56,839 nucleotides of DNA from Elusimicrobiota bacterium (GTDB taxonomy: Bacteria > Elusimicrobiota > Endomicrobiia > CG1-02-37-114 > XYA2-FULL-39-19): positions 1-56,839 of the forward strand of contig JAHIVV010000003.1 in NCBI GenBank assembly GCA_018816525.1. Direction: 5' to 3'. A program made the position numbers and the translations under genes. Positions 6,882-35,058 of this stretch are shown one piece after another. The notes beneath the pieces were generated by a model. That model had not been told where the DNA came from. It searched no databases and was given only the letters and a program-made list of their open reading frames with translations. Position 1 is the first letter of the stretch, and the number at the start of each line of letters is the position of its first letter.

Positions 6882-7616
6882 TCAGCGAAGGGGGAGCCAA
6901 TGGAGGACGCGCTGGATTTTTTTATCCCAATAACCCCATTCATGCGTTCCGGGCTCTTCTTCATAGGTATAATCAAGAGGGAGGCGCTTGCAGTGATCGC
7001 GGAATTTTTTATTATCTTCATAAAGGAAATCTTTAGTTCCGCAGCATTGGTAAAGTTTTGGCTTGGGTCCTTTAGATTTCGCTAATTTATCCGCCAGAAA
7101 GAAAAGATTACTATTACTTTTTTTAAAATTCGGCCTGACACCGAAAACATTTGTCATGTCCTCTTTACTAATTCGAGCGCCTATTTTCTCAACATCCATA
7201 GATCCGGAAAGGCTGGCTGCAGCGGCGAACTTATCCGGGAAATTAAGAGCGAGCTTAAACGCTCCGTAGCCGCCCATAGAAATGCCTGCCGCAAAGTTTT
7301 CATTCCGTTTTACCGATAAAGGGAATAATGACCTGGCAATTTTTGGCAATTCCTCGCTGATGAATGTCCAATATTTCGCGCCATGAGCCATATCGGTATA
7401 AAAACTCCTGTTGACAGCCGGCATCACCACGGCAAGCCCCAGAGATTCTACATAACGCTCAATAGAAGTCCTTCTTGTCCAAGCTGTATGGTCATCAGAT
7501 AATCCATGGAGGAGATAAAGTGCCGGGTGCTTTTTTGTCGTTTGCGGCAGTATAACGTACATGGACGTGGAAATTTGTAAAACTTCTGAAAAAAAACCAC
7601 AATGAATTAGCGCCAT
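6882..7616 (-). CDS. Alpha/beta-hydrolase, tributyrin-esterase/S-formylglutathione-hydrolase type
   Basis: 244 residues. The nucleophile elbow is GISMGGYG, with the Ser at about residue 113. The likely acid is in [10 protein letters not shown] and the base in GTHEWGYWD near the C-terminus. [12 protein letters not shown] forms the oxyanion region. This is the esterase family that includes tributyrin esterases of Firmicutes and S-formylglutathione hydrolases; the natural substrate is unknown. The start [13 protein letters not shown] is preceded by AAGGAG and matches the family start, so ten upstream codons are left out. It lies between priA and the deoR promoter and could be cotranscribed with priA or expressed alone. 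No signal peptide is visible. Confidence 0.85.
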
Positions 7617-7667
7617 TTTAAAGTTTCTCCTTATAACTATTTGCATTTGAAAAAAATATAAGTTTTT

Positions 7668-9641
7668 TCATATGATATAATAGGGATTTAGATCATATGC
7701 AATATGAATCCCTGTTTTTGGTTTAAAGTATTTTATATTTTCATTGAGCATGTTTAAATATTCAGTATCAAGCTTCAATAATATATGCCTGCGGTGTTCT
7801 CCGCGTAAAAGCGGATGGGGCGGTTCTTCAGGCCCCAGCAGGGTAACCTGATCCTGCACTTTATCTTCAAGGAAATTATACAATCTTTGCGCTTCTTCTT
7901 CAACTTTTGTTTTTTCTTTCCCGCGGATAATTACATTTATTAATTCCTTAAACGGCGGGTATCCCAGGTCTTCGCGCAATTCCAATTCATTTTTATAAAA
8001 GCCTTTCCAGTTAAGTTTGGCAAGCCAGGCAAACATATAGTTCTTTTTATCAGCAGTTTGCATCATAAACATGCCCGTTTTGTCCAGCAGGCCGGCTAAT
8101 TTATATAAAACCTGAAAAGCCTTTTCGCTGGCCCGGTAATCCTGCTGGTAGATCAGGTGGTCAATATTGTAAAGGCCCACAAATGACAATTTCCGCGCGG
8201 ATAAAGATTTTATTTTTTGCAGTATGGGAAGGATTATATGCGTGCCAATCAGTATATCTACCTTACCCGACTTGATCTCATTGAGAATTTTAAGCAAGTC
8301 GTCATTGCTTTTTATAGTATCCTGGTCTGCGCGGATAATATTTGCCTGGGGAAGAAGTATTTTTAAAGTAGATTCAACTCTTTCTGAGCCGATCCCGACA
8401 AATTTGATCCAGACGCTCTTGCAAATCAGGCATTTGTCTTTAAATTCGTATTTCAAACTGCAGTAGTGGCACTTGAGCTGTTCACTTTGTGGAGTTTTGG
8501 TATGGTAAGAAAGGGGGATACCGCATTTCGCGCAGCGCATAATTGTTTTGCAGCTGCGGCAGAACACCATGGTCGAGTACCCGCGCCGGTTCATAAAAAT
8601 CAGGGAAAGTTCATTTTTCAACCGCCGCGACTGCAATTCATTGTTCATCTCATTAGTGATTGACTGGTCGCCTTTACTGATACTAACAACTTTTATTTCC
8701 GGCAAGTTCTCCTGCGATGTTTTTTTATCTGACAGAAGCGTGCACTTTTTTGTATTAATATTATGGTAAGTGTTAATTGAAACCAGCTCGCTGCCGAGAA
8801 TAACCGAGCCACTATTGATTTTTGCGTATTCCGCTGCGGTTCTTATGGCGTCATATAAAGGTTTTTGCGGATTTTTATAAGATTGGTCGGTTTCATCGTC
8901 CACAATTATCAATTTAGGGTTTTTGAAAGGCATAAAAAGCGCTGAACGGGTACCCACAATGATTTTTAATTTTCCGGAGCTGGCGCCGAACCAGGTATCA
9001 TGTTTTTGCCTTTCAGAAAGGTAGCTATGCCAGGCGCCCGCAATAGCGCCGAATTTTTCCTGTAATTTCGCTTTTACTTCTTCAACAAGAATAATTTCCG
9101 GTACTAATAGAAGGCAGTCGCCGAACTGCAAAGTTTGCGCTATGGTATCAATATAAAAAGAAATTCTTTCCGGCTGGTTTAAACTGCTTATCGCGAAAGC
9201 GCTATGCCGGTTCTCTTTAATAGCGGAAACAATCTTACTCTGGATTTTTGCCCCCGAAGGGGTCTCAGGGACATATTTATTTATAATGGTTTCTTCCGGT
9301 TGATTGGGATCAGTAATGTATTTTGAAGCAGGTTTGAAGGATGTCGAAAAAATGCAGTCTAAAGCTTCGCCCAATGAGCAAACGTAAGTAAAGGACATCC
9401 AAAAGGCCAGTTTAAGAAGGTTTTCTGTTATGACAGGATAAGGGTCGGGCAGGCTGTAAATTTCTTTAATTCCCTTGAAATTGCATTCTTCCGTCAGATT
9501 TATTACATAACCCGTAACTTTTTTGGGGCCGAACGGAACGCTGACCCGCATGCCGGGAAAAACTTTTCCTGATAAGTGTGCCGGTATTTGGTAAGAAAAA
9601 GTTCTTTCTAATGGCAGGGGTAAAGCTACTTGCGCAAACAT
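7668..9641 (-). CDS. priA: PriA-like primosomal protein N' with all helicase motifs degraded
   Basis: 657 residues, somewhat shorter than E. coli PriA (732). The 3'-DNA-binding domain is at the N-terminus (FAQVALPLPLERTFSYQIP, VPFGPKKVTGYV). The zinc region keeps four CxxC pairs (CRSC, CAKC, CHYC, CLIC). The C-terminal domain keeps DLGYPPF and LLGPEEPP. The ATPase is not intact: Walker A reads AISSLNQPERI instead of GVTGSGKTE, DEEH reads DDET, GSAT reads GSEL, the motif V region reads GTHIILPILQK, and QVAGRAGR reads KLAGLLDK. It is probably a scaffold for replication restart rather than a helicase, as proposed for actinobacterial PriA. It starts 4 bases after the uracil-DNA glycosylase stop. 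Confidence 0.88.
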   Translation of the reverse strand: MFAQVALPLPLERTFSYQIPAHLSGKVFPGMRVSVPFGPKKVTGYVINLTEECNFKGIKEIYSLPDPYPVITENLLKLAFWMSFTYVCSLGEALDCIFSTSFKPASKYITDPNQPEETIINKYVPETPSGAKIQSKIVSAIKENRHSAFAISSLNQPERISFYIDTIAQTLQFGDCLLLVPEIILVEEVKAKLQEKFGAIAGAWHSYLSERQKHDTWFGASSGKLKIIVGTRSALFMPFKNPKLIIVDDETDQSYKNPQKPLYDAIRTAAEYAKINSGSVILGSELVSINTYHNINTKKCTLLSDKKTSQENLPEIKVVSISKGDQSITNEMNNELQSRRLKNELSLIFMNRRGYSTMVFCRSCKTIMRCAKCGIPLSYHTKTPQSEQLKCHYCSLKYEFKDKCLICKSVWIKFVGIGSERVESTLKILLPQANIIRADQDTIKSNDDLLKILNEIKSGKVDILIGTHIILPILQKIKSLSARKLSFVGLYNIDHLIYQQDYRASEKAFQVLYKLAGLLDKTGMFMMQTADKKNYMFAWLAKLNWKGFYKNELELREDLGYPPFKELINVIIRGKEKTKVEEEAQRLYNFLEDKVQDQVTLLGPEEPPHPLLRGEHRRHILLKLDTEYLNMLNENIKYFKPKTGIHIAYDLNPYYII

Positions 9642-9645
9642 AGGT

Positions 9646-10371
9646 TTATTTTAAGCCCAATTCTTTTTTTAACATTTTCATATCGTGCCAGGTGTCTACT
9701 TTAAGAGCCGGGTTTCTAAGCAATGCTGACGGGTGGTACATAGGCAGGAGTTTGCTTCCCTTGTAATTCTGGAACTTTCCGCGGAGCCTGGATATTCCTT
9801 CAAAAGTATTAAGCAAAGCCGATGTTGACGAATTTCCCAGGGTTACCAGGACGGCCGGGTTAATAATTTCGATCTGTTTCTCCAGATAGGGCATGCAGCT
9901 TTCCATTTCTTCTTTTGACGGCGGCCGGTCATTGCCTCTGGCATCAGGTGTGTCCGGATTTATCATAGGATGGCATTTTACGATATTGGCAATAAATACT
10001 TCTTCGCGTTTCAATCCGATGGATTCAATTATTTTCGTGAGAAGCTGTCCCGCTCTGCCGATAAACGGCCTTCCTGCCCTGTCTTCATCGTAACCCGGGC
10101 CTTCGCCTATAAATATTACTTTTGCATCGCTGCTGCCTTCGCCGAATACGGTTTTTATCCTGGATTTGCACAGCGTGCATTTTTTACAGCCGCTTACTTC
10201 TTTTTCAAGTTTCAGTAATTTATCGGATTTGCTCTTGTCTATTTTTAAAGGCGGATTCGAGGGGTTAACCTTGCTTGCAAATATGACGTCTGTATAGCCT
10301 AAAAACTTTTCCTCTTTGAGGGACCGCTGCGCGAGTTTGACGATTTTAAGAAATTCTTTTTTTCTGTCCAT
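9646..10371 (-). CDS. udg: Uracil-DNA glycosylase, family 4 (Fe-S type)
   Basis: 241 residues. It removes uracil from DNA. The family-4 signature GEGPGYDEDRAGRPFIGRAG is present at about residues 91-110. The four [4Fe-4S] cysteines are visible as CKKC upstream of it and as the Cys of VKCHP and ESCMPY downstream. MYHPSALL supplies the second catalytic motif. A leader of about 50 residues precedes the domain. It overlaps the upstream coaB gene by 26 bases and is followed 4 bases later by priA, a run of DNA-maintenance and coenzyme genes read together. Confidence 0.9.
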   Translation of the reverse strand: MDRKKEFLKIVKLAQRSLKEEKFLGYTDVIFASKVNPSNPPLKIDKSKSDKLLKLEKEVSGCKKCTLCKSRIKTVFGEGSSDAKVIFIGEGPGYDEDRAGRPFIGRAGQLLTKIIESIGLKREEVFIANIVKCHPMINPDTPDARGNDRPPSKEEMESCMPYLEKQIEIINPAVLVTLGNSSTSALLNTFEGISRLRGKFQNYKGSKLLPMYHPSALLRNPALKVDTWHDMKMLKKELGLK

Positions 10372-11002
10372 ATATGGTTTTTATCTTATTCCAGATTATT
10401 TGAGCGAATTTTTCCTTTGTCATGACCGGTATTTTTTCAACTTCTCCTGACCTGAATATGAAATAACCCTGGCTTTTATTATTGCCGATACTTGAAGAAG
10501 GATTGGCGATAATCAAGTCCAGGTTTTCTGCTTTTAGTTTCTTTAATGTGTTTTTGACTAAATCCTTTGTTTCCAAAGCAAAACCTATAAAAACTTTATC
10601 GCTGTTTTTATAGGACGCTGAAATATGATGAAGGATATTTTCCGTAGGCACCAATCTAATCTTCATTTCTTTTTTATTGCCTTTTTTGATTTTGTTTTTA
10701 TTGAACTTTACCGGCCTGAAATCGCATACTGCGGCACAAAAAATTATTATATCTGACTGCGCGCTTAATTTCATCGCCTGGGCAAACATCTGCCCGGTTG
10801 TTTCGACAGGGACAATCAATGTGTTTTCGGGCCGGGGCAGGGTTACCGGGCCGCTGATTAAAGTGACGCCAGCATCGTCTTTTACTGCGCAATCTGCAAT
10901 AGAATAAGCGGTCTTTCCGCTGGATGCATTGGAAATAAACCTTACCGGGTCAATATATTCTCTTGTAGGCCCAGCAGTAATTAATACGCTCGGTTTTTTC
11001 AT
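10346..11002 (-). CDS. coaB: Phosphopantothenate-cysteine ligase (separate CoaB half of CoaBC)
   Basis: 218 residues. It couples 4'-phosphopantothenate to cysteine in CoA synthesis. VLITAGPTREYIDPVRFISNxSSG, AAVCDFRP and GFALETKD are standard CoaB motifs. In most bacteria CoaB is the C-terminal half of a fused CoaBC. Here it is in the same reading frame as the upstream coaC and is separated by a single TAA plus six sense codons (LLKENQ). I see no good ribosome-binding site in that linker, so expression may depend on re-initiation or stop-codon readthrough. Confidence 0.92.
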   Translation of the reverse strand: MKKPSVLITAGPTREYIDPVRFISNASSGKTAYSIADCAVKDDAGVTLISGPVTLPRPENTLIVPVETTGQMFAQAMKLSAQSDIIIFCAAVCDFRPVKFNKNKIKKGNKKEMKIRLVPTENILHHISASYKNSDKVFIGFALETKDLVKNTLKKLKAENLDLIIANPSSSIGNNKSQGYFIFRSGEVEKIPVMTKEKFAQIIWNKIKTIYGQKKRIS

Positions 11003-11020
11003 TTGATTTTCTTTGAGGAG

Positions 11021-11584
11021 TTATTTTTTGAGAACTGAAATTATTTTGTTTAAAATAGTGTCCACTGCGGCAAGCCTGCCTATTCCTTCAACGCCACAGG
11101 CAAGCTCTCCGGTCTCCGGGCCCACGAATTTATAGCCGAATCCTGAAAGTTTTTCTGCGTTTTCTTTGTTGGCAGGATGATTCCACATATTGGCGTTCAT
11201 GGCAGGGCAAATAATTACCGGCGCTTTGCTTGCCAAAACTACGCTGGAAAGCAATTCATCAGCCAGGCCATTAGCTAACCTTGATATTGTGGCAGCAGTG
11301 GCAGGAGCGATTACAATCAAATCGGCCCAATCGGCAAGCGATATATGCTCCGGTTTCCATTCAGGAAGATTCAATTCAAACATATCGGAATAAACCGTGT
11401 TGTTTGAGAGCGTCTGCAAAGTCAAAGGAGTAATGAACTGCTTGGCTGAAGGGGTTAATATGCACTTGACGTCAATCCCTTTTTCTTTCAGTTTACGAAC
11501 CAGTCCGCATATTTTGTAGGCGGCAATACTTCCGCATACACCCACTAAAACCTTTTTTGTATTATTTGCTTTTTGATTTTTCAT
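11021..11584 (-). CDS. coaC: Phosphopantothenoylcysteine decarboxylase (separate CoaC half of CoaBC)
   Basis: 187 residues. It is a flavoprotein that decarboxylates phosphopantothenoylcysteine. VGVCGSIAAYKICGL near the N-terminus, APATAATISRLANGLADELL for flavin binding, and PAMNANMW with the conserved Asn (PxMNxxMW) are visible. The substrate-binding loop carries GELACGVEGIGRLA. It overlaps rpoZ by 23 bases and ends at a TAA in frame with coaB. The gmk-rpoZ-coaBC order is common in bacteria and supports the calls. Confidence 0.93.
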   Translation of the reverse strand: MKNQKANNTKKVLVGVCGSIAAYKICGLVRKLKEKGIDVKCILTPSAKQFITPLTLQTLSNNTVYSDMFELNLPEWKPEHISLADWADLIVIAPATAATISRLANGLADELLSSVVLASKAPVIICPAMNANMWNHPANKENAEKLSGFGYKFVGPETGELACGVEGIGRLAAVDTILNKIISVLKK

Positions 11585-11861
11585 CTTTTATTTCTTTTCT
11601 CGGGTATTTCTTATTAGGTGTATTCAACGATTCAACTACCGGAGGAAGCTTTGCTAACGCTTCAAGCGAAACTTTTCCGGAATAGACGTCTCTCATGGCT
11701 ATATCCATCTGTTCGTCAAACGGAAGATTTTTAAATTCTTCCTTGTTTTTAATCTCATGCGCCCATCTTGCTATTAACGGTATTATTTTATACCTTTCCA
11801 GTTTTGTGTTTAACATCAATTCTGCTAACAGCACTTCCTTTACTTTCGGTTCTGATGACAA
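11562..11861 (-). CDS. rpoZ: RNA polymerase omega subunit
   Basis: 99 residues. Omega helps fold and assemble the beta-prime subunit. The core KLERYKIIPLIARWAHEIK corresponds to the conserved helix with YxLVxxAAxRARxL in other omega proteins, though divergent. The basic, lysine-rich tail is not conserved. Identification rests partly on position: it lies directly downstream of gmk and overlaps coaC, the usual place for rpoZ. Confidence 0.75.
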   Translation of the reverse strand: MSSEPKVKEVLLAELMLNTKLERYKIIPLIARWAHEIKNKEEFKNLPFDEQMDIAMRDVYSGKVSLEALAKLPPVVESLNTPNKKYPRKEIKDEKSKSK

Positions 11862-11886
11862 TGTGTTGTACCTCCATTTGAAAATT

Positions 11887-12477
11887 TCAATTCTTGCTCT
11901 TCCGTGACTTTATTATAGCAATTATTTGAGCTACTGCGTTATTTAATTTATCATTTACTACCACATGATTATAATTTTTAGCATAAGCCATCTCTTTTTG
12001 AGCGTTTTTAAGCCGTAGTTTTATGGTTTCCTCGTTGTCCTGAGCCCTGTTGACCAGCCTTTGTTCGAGTGCTTTTTTTGAGGGGGGGGCAACAAATATA
12101 AACAAACCGTCCTTAAAAATGCGCCTGATTTTTTCTCCGCCTTGGACATCTATTATCAGCATTATATTTTTGCCTTTATTTATCGTGTCGATAAGCCGTT
12201 TTTTCGGGGTGCCGTAATAGTGCCCGTGCACAAGCGCCCATTCGGCAAACTCTTTTTTGGAAATCATGGATTTAAACTTTTGTTCCGAGACAAAGAAATA
12301 ATCTTTGCCGTTTTTTTCCAGGGGCCTGGGTTTGCGGGTTGTAACCGATACGGAAACTATTGTGTTCTTTAATTTTTTAAGCGCTTCTTTGCATAGGGTG
12401 GTCTTTCCTGCGCCGGAGGGAGCTGATATAACGATTATGAGGCCTTTTTTTATTGATTTTAATGTTTTTGTTTTCAT
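11887..12477 (-). CDS. gmk: Guanylate kinase
   Basis: 196 residues, the normal length. It phosphorylates GMP to GDP. The P-loop is SAPSGAGKTTL at about residues 18-28. SVSVTTRKPRPLEKNGKDYFFV contains the GMP-binding Arg and Tyr residues. VHGHYYGTPK and LIIDVQGGEKIR follow as expected. It is the first gene of a minus-strand series with rpoZ, coaC, coaB, udg and priA. A promoter lies about 45 bases upstream. Confidence 0.95.
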   Translation of the reverse strand: MKTKTLKSIKKGLIIVISAPSGAGKTTLCKEALKKLKNTIVSVSVTTRKPRPLEKNGKDYFFVSEQKFKSMISKKEFAEWALVHGHYYGTPKKRLIDTINKGKNIMLIIDVQGGEKIRRIFKDGLFIFVAPPSKKALEQRLVNRAQDNEETIKLRLKNAQKEMAYAKNYNHVVVNDKLNNAVAQIIAIIKSRKSKN

Positions 12478-12522
12478 TTTATAAGGAAATTTTCCGAACT
12501 TGGAGGCAAGTTATTGTCAGTA

Positions 12523-12551
12523 TTTATATCTAATTATCAGAGGAAAGTCAA
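12523..12551 (-). promoter_or_regulatory. Promoter of the gmk-rpoZ-coaC-coaB-udg-priA series
   Basis: On the minus strand there are TTGACT (12546-12551), a 17-base spacer and TATAAA (12523-12528). The predicted leader before the gmk ATG at 12477 is about 39 bases. It contains a short CTTG/CAAG hairpin and a near-palindromic GGAAAATTTCC next to the start. Confidence 0.65.
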
Positions 12552-12558
12552 ACAAATT

Positions 12559-12605
12559 AACTCCCCTCAATCACCTCTTTTAAAAAGCGGGGAAGTTAAA
12601 GAGGG
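12559..12605. repeat. Interleaved inverted repeats upstream of gmk (REP-like element or terminator)
   Basis: Two interleaved inverted repeats are visible: AACTCCCC (12559-12566) with GGGGAAGTT (12589-12597), and CCTCTTT (12574-12580) with AAAGAGG (12598-12604). The arrangement resembles the CCCCTC.../GAGGGG palindromic intergenic repeats seen in many bacterial genomes. It could end the uvrA-M23 transcript just before the gmk promoter. It is the only repeat I can see in the gap between 12478 and 12645. Confidence 0.5.
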
Positions 12606-12645
12606 ACAGTGCTATATCGATAAACCGGAAGAAATGAAAAGGCAA

Positions 12646-13854
12646 CTATTTGTTTTTCGGATTTGTCTCTGGCGGTGTTTCTAATAATTTAAGCGCATGG
12701 TCTTTTTGTATAATAAATTCATCGATATAATTTTTAGGTATATTTGCCGCCGGTGGAAATTTAAGTTTCATAAAATTTACAAACCTGCCGTTCTGAGTGA
12801 TGCGAAAATCCAGATGAGGCCCCGTAGAAAGACCTGTAGAACCCACATAACCGATAACCTGCCCCTGCCCCACCCGGGCTCCTGAGCTTATTCTTTTTCC
12901 AAATCTTGAAAGATGCCCGTATAGGGTTGTATATGTTGAGTTATGCCTAATAATAATCATTTTACCGAACCCGCCTTTCCATCCGGCGAAGGTAACAGTT
13001 CCTTCACCTATTGTTACAATAGGTGTTCCTGTAGCAGCAGAATAATCAATGCCCAAATGCGACCTAAAAATCCTTAGAATCGGATGAAACCTTTTTGTAG
13101 AGAAAAATGAAGAGATTCTTCTGAAGTTTACCGGCGCTTTTAAAAATAATTTTTTCAGCGAACCGCCCTCCGGTGTAAAGTAATCTGTGAATTTTTTGTC
13201 CTTGCTTTCGAAATAAACCGCTTTATGCAGGCCAATTTGCCGGCCATTATAGCTAGCAGACAAAATCTTTCCTTCTCGGACAACGCCGTTGCTGTACTTG
13301 TAGGTTTCATAGGCAAGTTTAAACGTGTCGCCCTGCCTCAAGTCGCTGAAAAAGTCAATTTGCCAGGAAAAAATATCAGCGAATTTCATAATAAGCTCAG
13401 GCGGGTTACCCGCTTTTATCATTGCTTCGTAAAGGCTGGTTTGGATAGTGCCGGAAAATGTTTTAATCTCCAGCGTTGAAGAGACCGCATTTTTTTTACA
13501 GTAAAAAATATTGCTGGATGATTTTTCTATGGAACAGTATTCTATCGGATTAGTCCAGTAATTGAACCTGTTGACCGTGCCGAACGTTGTTTTATAAATT
13601 TCGTAAACCTGCCCGGGCTGAATTCCACGGATATCAAAATTTGAATTGAGCGTGTTTATGAGGTTTCTGGTTTCTCCCGGAATTATTCCTTCCTGGTCCA
13701 TGAGGATTTCCTTAAGGGTATCGCCCGTCTGGATAGTCCCTGATGAAAGCACAATCACCGGTTTAGAATTAAAATAACCGCCCCTGTTTAAAAAGAAAAT
13801 AATAAAAACAATCAAAAGGGCCAGCGCTGAAATCAAAATGTTGTTTTTTTTCAT
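12646..13854 (-). CDS. M23-family peptidoglycan endopeptidase, membrane-anchored
   Basis: 402 residues. A signal anchor covers about residues 7-24 ([17 protein letters not shown]). The middle contains OapA/LysM-like segments ([15 protein letters not shown] and [13 protein letters not shown]), as in MepM-type enzymes that cleave cell-wall cross-links. The C-terminal M23 domain has [13 protein letters not shown], with the zinc His and Asp, then LYGHLS and GPHLDFRI. The last motif is normally HxH; here the zinc-ligand His is Asp (HLD), a variant I recall from some other Gram-negative M23 proteins. It overlaps uvrA by 4 bases (ATGA). Confidence 0.88.
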
Positions 13855-32165: not shown

Positions 32166-33059
32166 TTATTGTGCTGTTTGGGTAGATTGCTGTTGTTCGA
32201 AGGATTGGGTTGTTGTTGAAGGCTCAACGTTTTGAACAGGCTGCTGAATTTGTTTTGCTGTTATTTTTTCTTTTGATATCGTTATTTCTACACGACGATT
32301 CTTCATCCTGCCGGTTCTTGTTGTATTAGGAGCAATAGGTTTTTGCGAACCCCATCCTTTTGCGCTCATTCTTTCAGCTCTCACGCCTTTTTTAACAAGG
32401 TAACTGTAAACATTCCAGGCCCGCGGGCTGGAAAGCTCTGTTTCAGATTTTGCTTCGGATATATCAGTATGGCCTTCAATTAAAACTTTATTATCAGGGT
32501 AATTTTTAATTGTTTCGATTGCTTTGTCCAAAGCCGCATAGGCTTCCGGTTTGAGCGAGGCCTTATTTCTGTCAAAAAGAACTTCTGAAGAGAGGGAAAT
32601 TTTAAGCTCCTGGAATTCCTGTTTGAGTTTTTTTATTATTTCTTTCGGAGGAACTTTTACCGTAATAGGTGTTTCCGCGGTTGTTTTATTTCCGGCAACA
32701 TCAAAAGCGGTTATTTGGGCTTTATATTCCCCGTTGGGTACAATCTCTGAATAAATGTCGTCTTTGCCGGACCAGGTTACGTCTCTTCGCACGATGCCGC
32801 CCAGGATAGTTTCTTCGGGTGATTTATAAGTTTTTATCGTTTTGTTTTTAGAGCTGATAATATTTAACTGCCAGCGCTCAATGGGATTTGTGTCCTGGAT
32901 AATGAAGAAAAAAGTTGTTTCATCTGTTATTTTATCGTCGTTTGGTGTTATTACAGCCGTTGAGGCCGTGATAGAGAGCTGTGGGGATGTCAAATCTATC
33001 TGTAAAGGCTGGTGTTGTACCTGCCCGACTTTTCCGTCGGCATTGATAACCATTTCCAC
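32166..33059 (-). CDS. OmpA-family C-terminal part of a frameshifted PorV-OmpA protein
   Basis: 297 residues from a GTG at 33059, but the coding frame stays open upstream as far as the C8 tract at 33209-33216. That extension reads WNINIYNSFNALIKSF and INWDGKTDLGVFAPEGNYEVE, which is FlgD-type Ig sequence. The visible part has another FlgD-like Ig repeat (WSGKDDIYSEIVPNGEYKA) and then an OmpA peptidoglycan-binding domain (LFDRNKASLKPEA, IEGHTD, RMKNRRVEI). This half and the one at 33172-34269 join perfectly if one C is removed. The intact protein would be about 700 residues, an outer-membrane barrel tethered to the cell wall. Confidence 0.8.
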   Translation of the reverse strand: MEMVINADGKVGQVQHQPLQIDLTSPQLSITASTAVITPNDDKITDETTFFFIIQDTNPIERWQLNIISSKNKTIKTYKSPEETILGGIVRRDVTWSGKDDIYSEIVPNGEYKAQITAFDVAGNKTTAETPITVKVPPKEIIKKLKQEFQELKISLSSEVLFDRNKASLKPEAYAALDKAIETIKNYPDNKVLIEGHTDISEAKSETELSSPRAWNVYSYLVKKGVRAERMSAKGWGSQKPIAPNTTRTGRMKNRRVEITISKEKITAKQIQQPVQNVEPSTTTQSFEQQQSTQTAQ

Positions 33060-33171
33060 TTCGTAGTTGCCCTCGGGCGCGAATACGCCTAAATCAGTTT
33101 TACCGTCCCAATTGATAATTTTTGGCAGGGTCTCTTCTCCCGAAAAAGATTTTATAAGAGCATTGAATGAA

Positions 33172-34269
33172 TTATAAATGTTGATATTCCACGATTTTAT
33201 TTTTGTCAGGGGGGGGTGTTTGGGGCAGAAAAAATGTACTGTCTTTTATACCGTCATTGTTGGGTGAAAAGATTGCCGGGTCAATTTTAAGCAGCATGTC
33301 AAAAGTTTTAGGAGTTACAGACAAAGGAGCGAATTTTATAACGAAGGAAACACGGTGTGTGTCCCCTACTGCAGCAAACGGCTGGTAGGCATAATCAAAC
33401 CCTATTCCATTAATATGTATGCCCAGGCCGGCCCTCAACCCTGACATAGAATCAAGCGCTTTTGTGTTTTTTTCATCAACAAAATATTTATAACCGAGCC
33501 GCAGTGCAAGGACATTAGCTCCCCAGTGTTCAATGCCGGCGCTATAGCTTGTCTGGCCGGATGCAGGCTGGTCGCCTTGCAGCACAAAATTTATCAGAGA
33601 GGATTGTTCAGGCATGTCCAGTTTTAAAGCAATTCCAACGCTTTGGGTTAAAGGCATTTTTTCTTTTATCAAAGAATTTGAAAAAGAGAACTCATTAACG
33701 CCTAAATTTCTTGCGGCATAGCCAAAAGAAAAAGCTCCATTTTCTGTCCGAAGGATAAAACCCGCGTCGCCGCATAAAATATTTGCGCTGTAATTTGTAT
33801 CGAGAGTTTCGGTTACGGATTTTCCGGTTAACCCCAGGGAAAAAGTTTTTGAGGCCTTGATGCCGTAGGATATGCCCGCTGACATATCGGAAGCATTGAA
33901 AGTGTCTTTTAGCGACCCTTCTTCAAATCTTGTTATGGGTGTGCCGCCTAAATAGGTTCCGTTTAACGCGACAGTACCTGTGTGGGAGGGGTATAAGAAT
34001 CCACCTGAACCGATATATGTATCTCCCAACCAATAAGAATAAGTCGCTTGAAATTCTGACCTGGTTATGAAGCCTAAGCCTGCAGGATTGTAATAGACAG
34101 CATTTAAATCATCTGCCAGGGGAGTAAAAGCTTCGCCCATGCCGGCCGAGCGCGCTCCCGGGGCAATATTGAGAAATTCCAGCCCTGTGGATTGTGCGTG
34201 CAGGTTTGAAAAACAGAAAACGATTAATGAAAATATTACCGAAATGAGTATTCTTTTTTTAGTTTTCAT
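33172..34269 (-). CDS. PorV/PorQ-like outer-membrane barrel, N-terminal part of a frameshifted gene
   Basis: 365 residues. A signal peptide is at the N-terminus (ILISVIFSLIVFCFSNLHAQ). GARSAGMGEAFTPLADDLNAVYYNPAGLG is the signature of the PorV/PorQ family of type IX secretion-associated barrels, followed by repeated beta strands. The end carries FSPNNDGIKDSTFF, the opening of a FlgD-like Ig domain, and then leaves the frame at a C8 tract after LPQTPPP. The last ten or so residues (DKNKIVEYQHL) are therefore out-of-frame sequence. It starts next to the stop of the upstream T9SS-tail gene. Confidence 0.8.
   Translation of the reverse strand: MKTKKRILISVIFSLIVFCFSNLHAQSTGLEFLNIAPGARSAGMGEAFTPLADDLNAVYYNPAGLGFITRSEFQATYSYWLGDTYIGSGGFLYPSHTGTVALNGTYLGGTPITRFEEGSLKDTFNASDMSAGISYGIKASKTFSLGLTGKSVTETLDTNYSANILCGDAGFILRTENGAFSFGYAARNLGVNEFSFSNSLIKEKMPLTQSVGIALKLDMPEQSSLINFVLQGDQPASGQTSYSAGIEHWGANVLALRLGYKYFVDEKNTKALDSMSGLRAGLGIHINGIGFDYAYQPFAAVGDTHRVSFVIKFAPLSVTPKTFDMLLKIDPAIFSPNNDGIKDSTFFLPQTPPPDKNKIVEYQHL
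33209..33216 (-). repeat. C8 homopolymer tract at the PorV-OmpA frameshift
   Basis: Eight G on the plus strand, C8 in the coding direction. With seven C the sequence reads TPPLTKIKSWNINIYN and continues without a stop into the OmpA half; with eight it ends after about 15 codons. This is the type of tract used for slipped-strand phase variation. An assembly or sequencing error is the competing explanation. Confidence 0.8.
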
Positions 34270-35058
34270 TTATTTTTTTGTTACTACAACTCTTCTGGTA
34301 ATTCCTTTCGGGTCGGCAGCATCTAAATTAACGAAATAAATGCCTGAAGGAACCACTTCACCGGTTTCATTTTTACCGTCCCAAATTAAAGTGTATTCAC
34401 GTTCTTTTAATGCCAGCTGGTCCCCTGCCAGAGTTTTCACAATCTGGCCTGAAAGGTTGAATATTTTAACTTTGACTCTTCTGTTGGTGTCTCTTATAAT
34501 ATATCTGAATTTGGTTATCTGTCCTTTAGAAGGGTTAAAAGGATTGTTATAGTCAACCTGCAAATCGTAACTATATCCCGATGCAAAGGTTAAACTGGAA
34601 ATAATTGTTACAAATTTTGCCGGTGACGGAAAAGACGGAATAGGAATTGACGAGCCATCATCTTGATAAAGTATTAAGTTCCAGTAATACGTGGAATTGT
34701 AGGTTAATGCAGTCGTTGCACTATTGTCTGAGTTATATTTAAGTGTAGTCCGGAAGTTTCCAGCACCCAGATTCGCAGTATTTATTGAGTTTGTTGAAGC
34801 AGTGATTACCCAAATGGCGGAAGTAAACGGCAATGCATTTGCGGTGCTGACAGAAAGCGTAAAAGAGCTTATACAGACACTGCCGTTAGCCGTGAATTCC
34901 CAGGAAAAAACTGGCGGCCGGCCCTGAATAACAACTTCAAGGTTATCCTGAGCGCCGTCCACAACAAACAGGTAAGTCGAGATTGATATGGCCTGCAGCT
35001 GTGAAACCATGAATAGTATTGCGGATACAAGAAATGTTTTTTTTAGTATTTTCGGCAA
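34270..35058 (-). CDS. Secreted protein with a FlgD-like / type IX-type C-terminal tail
   Basis: 262 residues. A signal peptide (about 1-23, ending LQAISIS) precedes a beta-rich domain with FSWEF and YNSTYYWNL, which looks like a fibronectin/Ig-type module. The C-terminus has NPFNPSKGQITKFRYII, VKVKIFNLSGQIVKTL, YTLIWDGKNETGEVVPSGIYF and a final RRVVVTKK. This is the arrangement of FlgD-Ig or type A T9SS sorting tails. It lies between pth and the PorV-like gene, so the exported protein and a candidate outer-membrane partner are cotranscribed. Confidence 0.75.
   Translation of the reverse strand: MPKILKKTFLVSAILFMVSQLQAISISTYLFVVDGAQDNLEVVIQGRPPVFSWEFTANGSVCISSFTLSVSTANALPFTSAIWVITASTNSINTANLGAGNFRTTLKYNSDNSATTALTYNSTYYWNLILYQDDGSSIPIPSFPSPAKFVTIISSLTFASGYSYDLQVDYNNPFNPSKGQITKFRYIIRDTNRRVKVKIFNLSGQIVKTLAGDQLALKEREYTLIWDGKNETGEVVPSGIYFVNLDAADPKGITRRVVVTKK

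Follow-up and report, generated by a model that had tools for sequence, protein, structure and literature searches.

Introduction

In Campylobacter, slippage at C or G tracts of 7–13 nucleotides acts as a switch (PMC4965091), and the modelled rates at tracts of eight are 4e-4 insertions and 4e-5 deletions per division (PMC8224891). Frame breaks have other origins too: in the GeneTack study, those found in a single member of a family were usually put down to indels or sequencing errors, and clustered ones to recoding or phase variation (PMC3711429). The sequences CCC-C and CCC-U are prone to ribosomal shifts, at a rate of about 1% beside the start codon in E. coli (PMC4519876), and transcriptional insertions within homopolymers are found only in A/T runs in E. 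coli and Buchnera (PMC5574713). Regarding the attachment of surface proteins, the OmpA-type protein PorE of Porphyromonas binds peptidoglycan and also the barrel PorP, which itself binds a CTD protein (PMC9143113).

We analysed a locus in a window of 56,839 nucleotides, i.e. the whole stretch of DNA under study, which is contig 3 of an Elusimicrobiota genome (G000; 1.595 Mb, 93 contigs, 98.6% complete). The locus resembles the poly-G/poly-C contingency genes of Campylobacter jejuni in that a C8 tract lies in the frame of a surface protein and a change of one base switches the product. It differs from them in having a single private tract, a number of tracts at chance level and mismatch repair genes, and it is known here from one assembly. 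It also resembles the singleton frameshifted genes of GeneTack (one broken copy among intact orthologues, with the remainder under normal constraint), and we found no feature that separates it from them. Like PorP-PorE, it joins a FadL-like barrel with a peptidoglycan-binding domain of the OmpA type, and the neighbouring gene encodes a secreted, CTD-like partner. Unlike PorP-PorE, the barrel is of the PorV rather than the PorP family, it shares one polypeptide with the OmpA domain, the TPR and propeller domains of PorE are lacking, and the phylum is Elusimicrobiota. By analogy, the unbroken protein of Elusimicrobiota resembles a PorP-PorE anchor made as one chain.

A gene broken at a C8 tract

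The locus comprises the following features:

34270..35058, minus strand: operon partner, secreted, whose C-terminus is a FlgD-Ig / T9SS type-A sorting-like domain (TIGR04183, 23.8 bits for a cut-off of 23; FlgD_ig, 31.3 bits)
33175..34269, minus strand: frame of the PorV/PorQ-family outer-membrane barrel (365 aa; stop at 33172–33174)
33048..33282, minus strand: FlgD-Ig / CTD-like domain straddling C8, which starts (first strands) in the frame of the barrel and continues in the downstream frame
33209..33216, minus strand: C8 tract and site of the frame change, from the sequence and the alignment to relatives
32169..33206, minus strand: downstream half, in the other frame (346 aa: remainder of the first FlgD-Ig domain, second Ig-like domain, OmpA domain and Q-rich tail)
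33057..33059, minus strand: GTG, first possible start of the downstream frame, with GAGGG 10 nt upstream and followed by MEMVINADGKVGQ, without signal peptide
32295..32579, minus strand: OmpA peptidoglycan-binding domain (PF00691, 78.2 bits for a cut-off of 27.2)

The plus strand has eight G at 33209–33216, which gives C8 on the coding strand, inside the frame as in slipped-strand phase-variable genes. The downstream frame has no stop between 33245 and 32169 and overlaps the barrel frame over 33245–33175, with the tract inside the overlap. The last 12 residues of the barrel frame, past C8, are out of the ancestral frame. When an intact relative protein was searched against the DNA of the window with tblastn, the match to residues 4–351 stayed in one frame as far as 33214, and the remainder matched in the other. 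The initial annotation had placed the barrel and the OmpA part in two frames that meet at C8, with one C extra, and the frames, the tblastn search and a gap-free alignment to relatives confirm the break and its place. It had also described the intervening region as coding in the downstream frame with FlgD-Ig motifs, and this holds: 33206–33060 is coding in that frame (TKIKSWNINIYNSFNALIKSFSGEETLPKIINWDGKTDLGVFAPEGNYEV). The Pfam FlgD_ig match on the downstream part starts at position 23 of the profile, the first 22 positions being absent, and the joined stretch gives weak matches to the CHU_C and Bac_Flav_CTERM models.

Two independent genes in the present form, which the initial annotation had already rejected, are ruled out by the FlgD-Ig domain that spans C8 and by 14 orthologues that are uninterrupted there. 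The lack of a signal peptide on the downstream half excludes them too. The downstream frame contains no ATG, GTG or TTG ahead of the GTG at 33059, and a scan for promoters inside the gene returned weak matches only.

The barrel and its putative anchor

The barrel belongs to the PorV/PorQ family, with a match of 155 bits to NCBIfam NF033709 (PorV_fam, cut-off 90) over residues 27–313, and it matches the PorV chain of the SprA-PorV structure 6h3i in phmmer (E=5.6e-6). Its N-terminus has a signal peptide, as judged by eye from the sequence. These matches are shared with PorV/PorQ barrels, but the protein differs from them by its OmpA extension and by scores under the equivalog cut-offs for PorV, PorQ and PorV2; for the T9SS PorV equivalog NF033710, the score is 64 bits against a cut-off of 250. 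The OmpA domain has phmmer matches to solved OmpA-family domains, and by eye it retains the expected Asp (in HTD) and Arg (in SSPRAW), which we take to be the residues that hold peptidoglycan. The domain is predicted to bind peptidoglycan.

Orthologues are intact and both halves are constrained

We compared one genome per species. The nearest relative among the genomes compared, Elusimicrobia bacterium RIFOXYB2_FULL_48_7, is of the same genus. A search for a second assembly of the species among genome contigs, a set that may leave out records of the genome under study, returned this congener and distant families only. The orthologues come from several families of the class. The junction is resolved in 14 of them, and the frame runs uninterrupted across it in all 14. 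Twelve are full-length (716, 678, 668, 657, 731, 674, 708, 695, 728, 700, 687 and 683 aa), while two are cut by the end of a contig before the start of the barrel. The contig of a fifteenth ends 44 codons past the junction. No run of more than five C was found anywhere in the gene among these 15 orthologues, and the two nearest relatives have CCCCAG at the position of C8. The tract is therefore private to the genome of the window. The protein is collinear with those of the two nearest relatives and free of gaps over the tract (PQTPPLT versus PEVPQLT and PEVPQIT), hence the difference amounts to one base within about three codons of C8.

Constraint is similar on either side of the break. For the two nearest relatives, identity to G001 is 66% for the barrel and 68% for the downstream half, identity to G002 is 56% for both, and pN is far below pS in both halves. 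The dN between the genome of the window and G002 is 0.326 in the N-terminal half and 0.365 in the C-terminal half, versus 0.365 and 0.354 between G001 and G002. The downstream half is not accelerated on its own branch relative to the congener and has not decayed. We therefore reject a decaying pseudogene, although at least one other gene of this genome is truncated (see below). Since both halves are equally constrained and the downstream half shows no acceleration, the inactivation, if real, would be a recent event.

A probable recent slip or a possible error of assembly

The best reading, to which we give a little under an even chance, is that one unprogrammed slippage occurred in a constrained gene and left the barrel without its wall anchor. 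The gene codes for a single PorV-barrel / FlgD-Ig / OmpA protein, which is one chain in most of the class. A lineage-specific proline-rich stretch (CCC CCC CTG, versus CCC CAG CTG in G002) would have made C7 by chance, and one replication slip would have changed C7 to C8. Many observations agree with such a slip: this gene is the single exception to 14 orthologues, both halves are constrained, the tract is private and tract numbers are at chance, no other split gene was found in about 290, and other coding C/G8 runs are in frame. Frame breaks present in one member of a family are also usually indel mutations or sequencing errors (PMC3711429). Two points go against it. C7 should seldom slip when mutS and mutL are intact, and an inactivating form that became the consensus requires drift, favour or error.

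Alternatively, the organism may have an in-frame tract and an intact gene, with C8 being a slip of sequencing or metagenome assembly. We regard this as unlikely, though a serious contender: all of the gene but one base looks functional, homopolymers are the usual site of such errors, and errors are one of the two usual causes of singleton breaks (PMC3711429). However, no other frame break appeared in the part of the assembly that we sampled. The comparison set 579 kb (36% of the genome) against 1.33 Mb of G002 and covered 292 homologue-supported frames, including a few shadow frames. In this set, the barrel/OmpA gene is the sole one whose two parts match a single relative protein in different frames at a short overlap. 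The aligned coding parts hold 94 A/T runs of at least 8 in frame, and the two other coding C/G8 runs are in frame as well. The other apparent splits were discarded: they came from contig ends, from shadow frames, or from LeuC/LeuD-like genes that are separate here but fused in the relative (an assignment made from the sequence). A generally frameshift-ridden assembly is thus ruled out for the 36% sampled; the survey speaks against an assembly prone to homopolymer errors overall, without clearing any single site. A natural indel is favoured over an assembly error, and we infer that C8 is real in the DNA.

If the slip is real, the dominant cells in the sample would make a complete barrel that lacks its tie to peptidoglycan, the OmpA domain. 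The initial annotation had predicted the same product for a C8 cell, and the structure of the frames agrees with it. Because it has no signal peptide, the downstream half would not yield a working protein of the envelope. If PorP-PorE of the type IX system is a guide, both the barrel and the CTD partner would then come loose from the wall.

The survey of the assembly was accompanied by one observation on another gene. A TonB-dependent receptor is cut to its first ~220 residues (C5:12501-24931, stretch positions 7363-6722, minus strand), when the relative has 624 aa, and adjoins rsmA and dnaA (the three genes were identified by eye). This loss is a real truncation and not a frame change.

Possible phase variation and the distribution of C/G tracts

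The gene had been put forward as a candidate for phase variation. In such a switch, slippage at the tract would toggle a fraction of the cells between a wall-anchored form (full length) and an unanchored one (barrel only), and selection would keep the tract. This is mechanically possible: the protein is at the surface, the C tract has a length that switches in Campylobacter, and the break comes after a complete barrel, so that both forms could be stable. The evolved switch, however, is unsupported. The tract is absent from all relatives, and no repeat is kept in the orthologues or in like genes. Both mutS and mutL are present and intact, which rules out a loss of mismatch repair and means that the rates of Campylobacter should not carry over.

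The tracts of the genome as a whole point the same way. There are 25 C/G runs of at least 7 in the 1.6 Mb, when Markov models expect 43 (order 2) or 27 (order 3), and nine of at least 8, when they expect 8.8 (order 2) or 4.9 (order 3); an order-1 model predicts more. C runs of at least 8 in long frames are at about the level expected from shuffling synonymous codons with the same proteins, a comparison in which the single C8 counts twice (the gene has two long frames) and the stretches sampled were picked so as to contain the tracts. Hence, there is no excess of G/C tracts over chance of the kind expected under phase variation, and the C8 tract is not beyond chance. Apart from C8 itself, one of the nine runs of at least 8 is in gmk, one is in a glycosyltransferase gene and six are outside long frames. 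The run in gmk (guanylate kinase, same contig) is a C8 at 12082–12089 that stays in frame through an essential domain, and the one in the glycosyltransferase gene is a G8 in frame. None of these eight breaks a frame, and surface genes do not share a group of similar tracts. The counts and positions of the tracts rule out a genome-wide contingency system.

We thus find evolved phase variation improbable, and we are slightly more doubtful still that the tract is a genuine contingency switch by which an uncultured phylum, its mismatch repair genes intact, alternates a type IX-family barrel between wall-anchored and free forms. The frame break is confirmed, while phase variability is unproven and not favoured. 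If C8 varies between cells, it would make a phase-variable wall anchor in Elusimicrobiota, and the literature searched held no study of a switch of this kind in the phylum. Should C8 prove invariant, the gene would serve as a warning against reading phase variation into a homopolymer that arose by chance in a single metagenome-assembled genome.

Of the six G/C tracts of at least 8 outside long frames, three precede an ATG by no more than about 15 nt, at the Shine-Dalgarno position: C60:12791 (G8), C12:39892 (G9) and C48:15102 (G10). The genes behind them are a lipoprotein gene after a PorV paralogue, a Pal-like OmpA lipoprotein and a small membrane protein. The length of the tract could tune the translation of these three genes.

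Recoding and gene fission as improbable alternatives

Programmed frameshifting at CCC, also raised by the initial annotation, seems very improbable. A +1 shift of the ribosome on the CCC codons (or slippage of the RNA polymerase) would make the full protein from C8, either as the saviour of an indel or to set a regulated ratio, and ACA CCC CCC CCU GAC does belong to the +1-shift-prone class CC[C/U]-[C/U] (PMC4519876). Yet the orthologues need no shift, as none changes frame at the junction, and we saw by eye no stop codon, prfB-like stimulator or SD-like element beside the CCC codons. The rate of +1 shifts at CCC-C is about 1% even at the most favourable position (PMC4519876), and transcriptional insertions in homopolymers are confined to A/T runs in E. 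coli and Buchnera (PMC5574713). Neither process would be expected to yield much full-length protein from C8.

A functional fission of the barrel and the OmpA half, in which GTG 33059 would start a second gene, is hardly credible either: GAGGG stands 10 nt ahead of this codon and family f4, probably the Elusimicrobiaceae, does have the FlgD-Ig/OmpA half as a separate gene, but that gene keeps the full first FlgD-Ig domain and an apparent signal peptide of its own, whereas the product of a restart here would lack a signal peptide and retain only half of the Ig domain.

The two-gene unit and a SprA-like protein

The stop codon of the operon partner abuts the ATG of the barrel (TAAATG), and the order of the partner and the PorV-FlgD-Ig-OmpA gene is kept in all seven relatives whose upstream flank was examined. 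This conserved two-gene unit covers 32166–35058 in the window and corresponds to loci L039, L041, L043-L047 and L197 in the relatives. In family f4, where the FlgD-Ig/OmpA half is the separate gene described above, a PorV-family match lies directly downstream of it in several genomes. This argues that the barrel and OmpA parts work together whether they are fused or not.

The genome also encodes a SprA-like protein of 1793 aa (C6:15001-35000, stretch positions 7588-12966, plus strand), which scores 105 bits against TIGR04189 (SprA/Sov, cut-off 200) and has an autotransporter-like C-terminus. How far type IX-like systems extend is a question on which the conserved operon probably bears more widely, since it pairs a CTD-like protein with PorV and OmpA in one chain and occurs in genomes that also have this divergent SprA-like protein. 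Similar SprA-like matches were found in 11 of the 12 relatives searched, which points to a type IX-like translocon of divergent sequence in the Elusimicrobiota.
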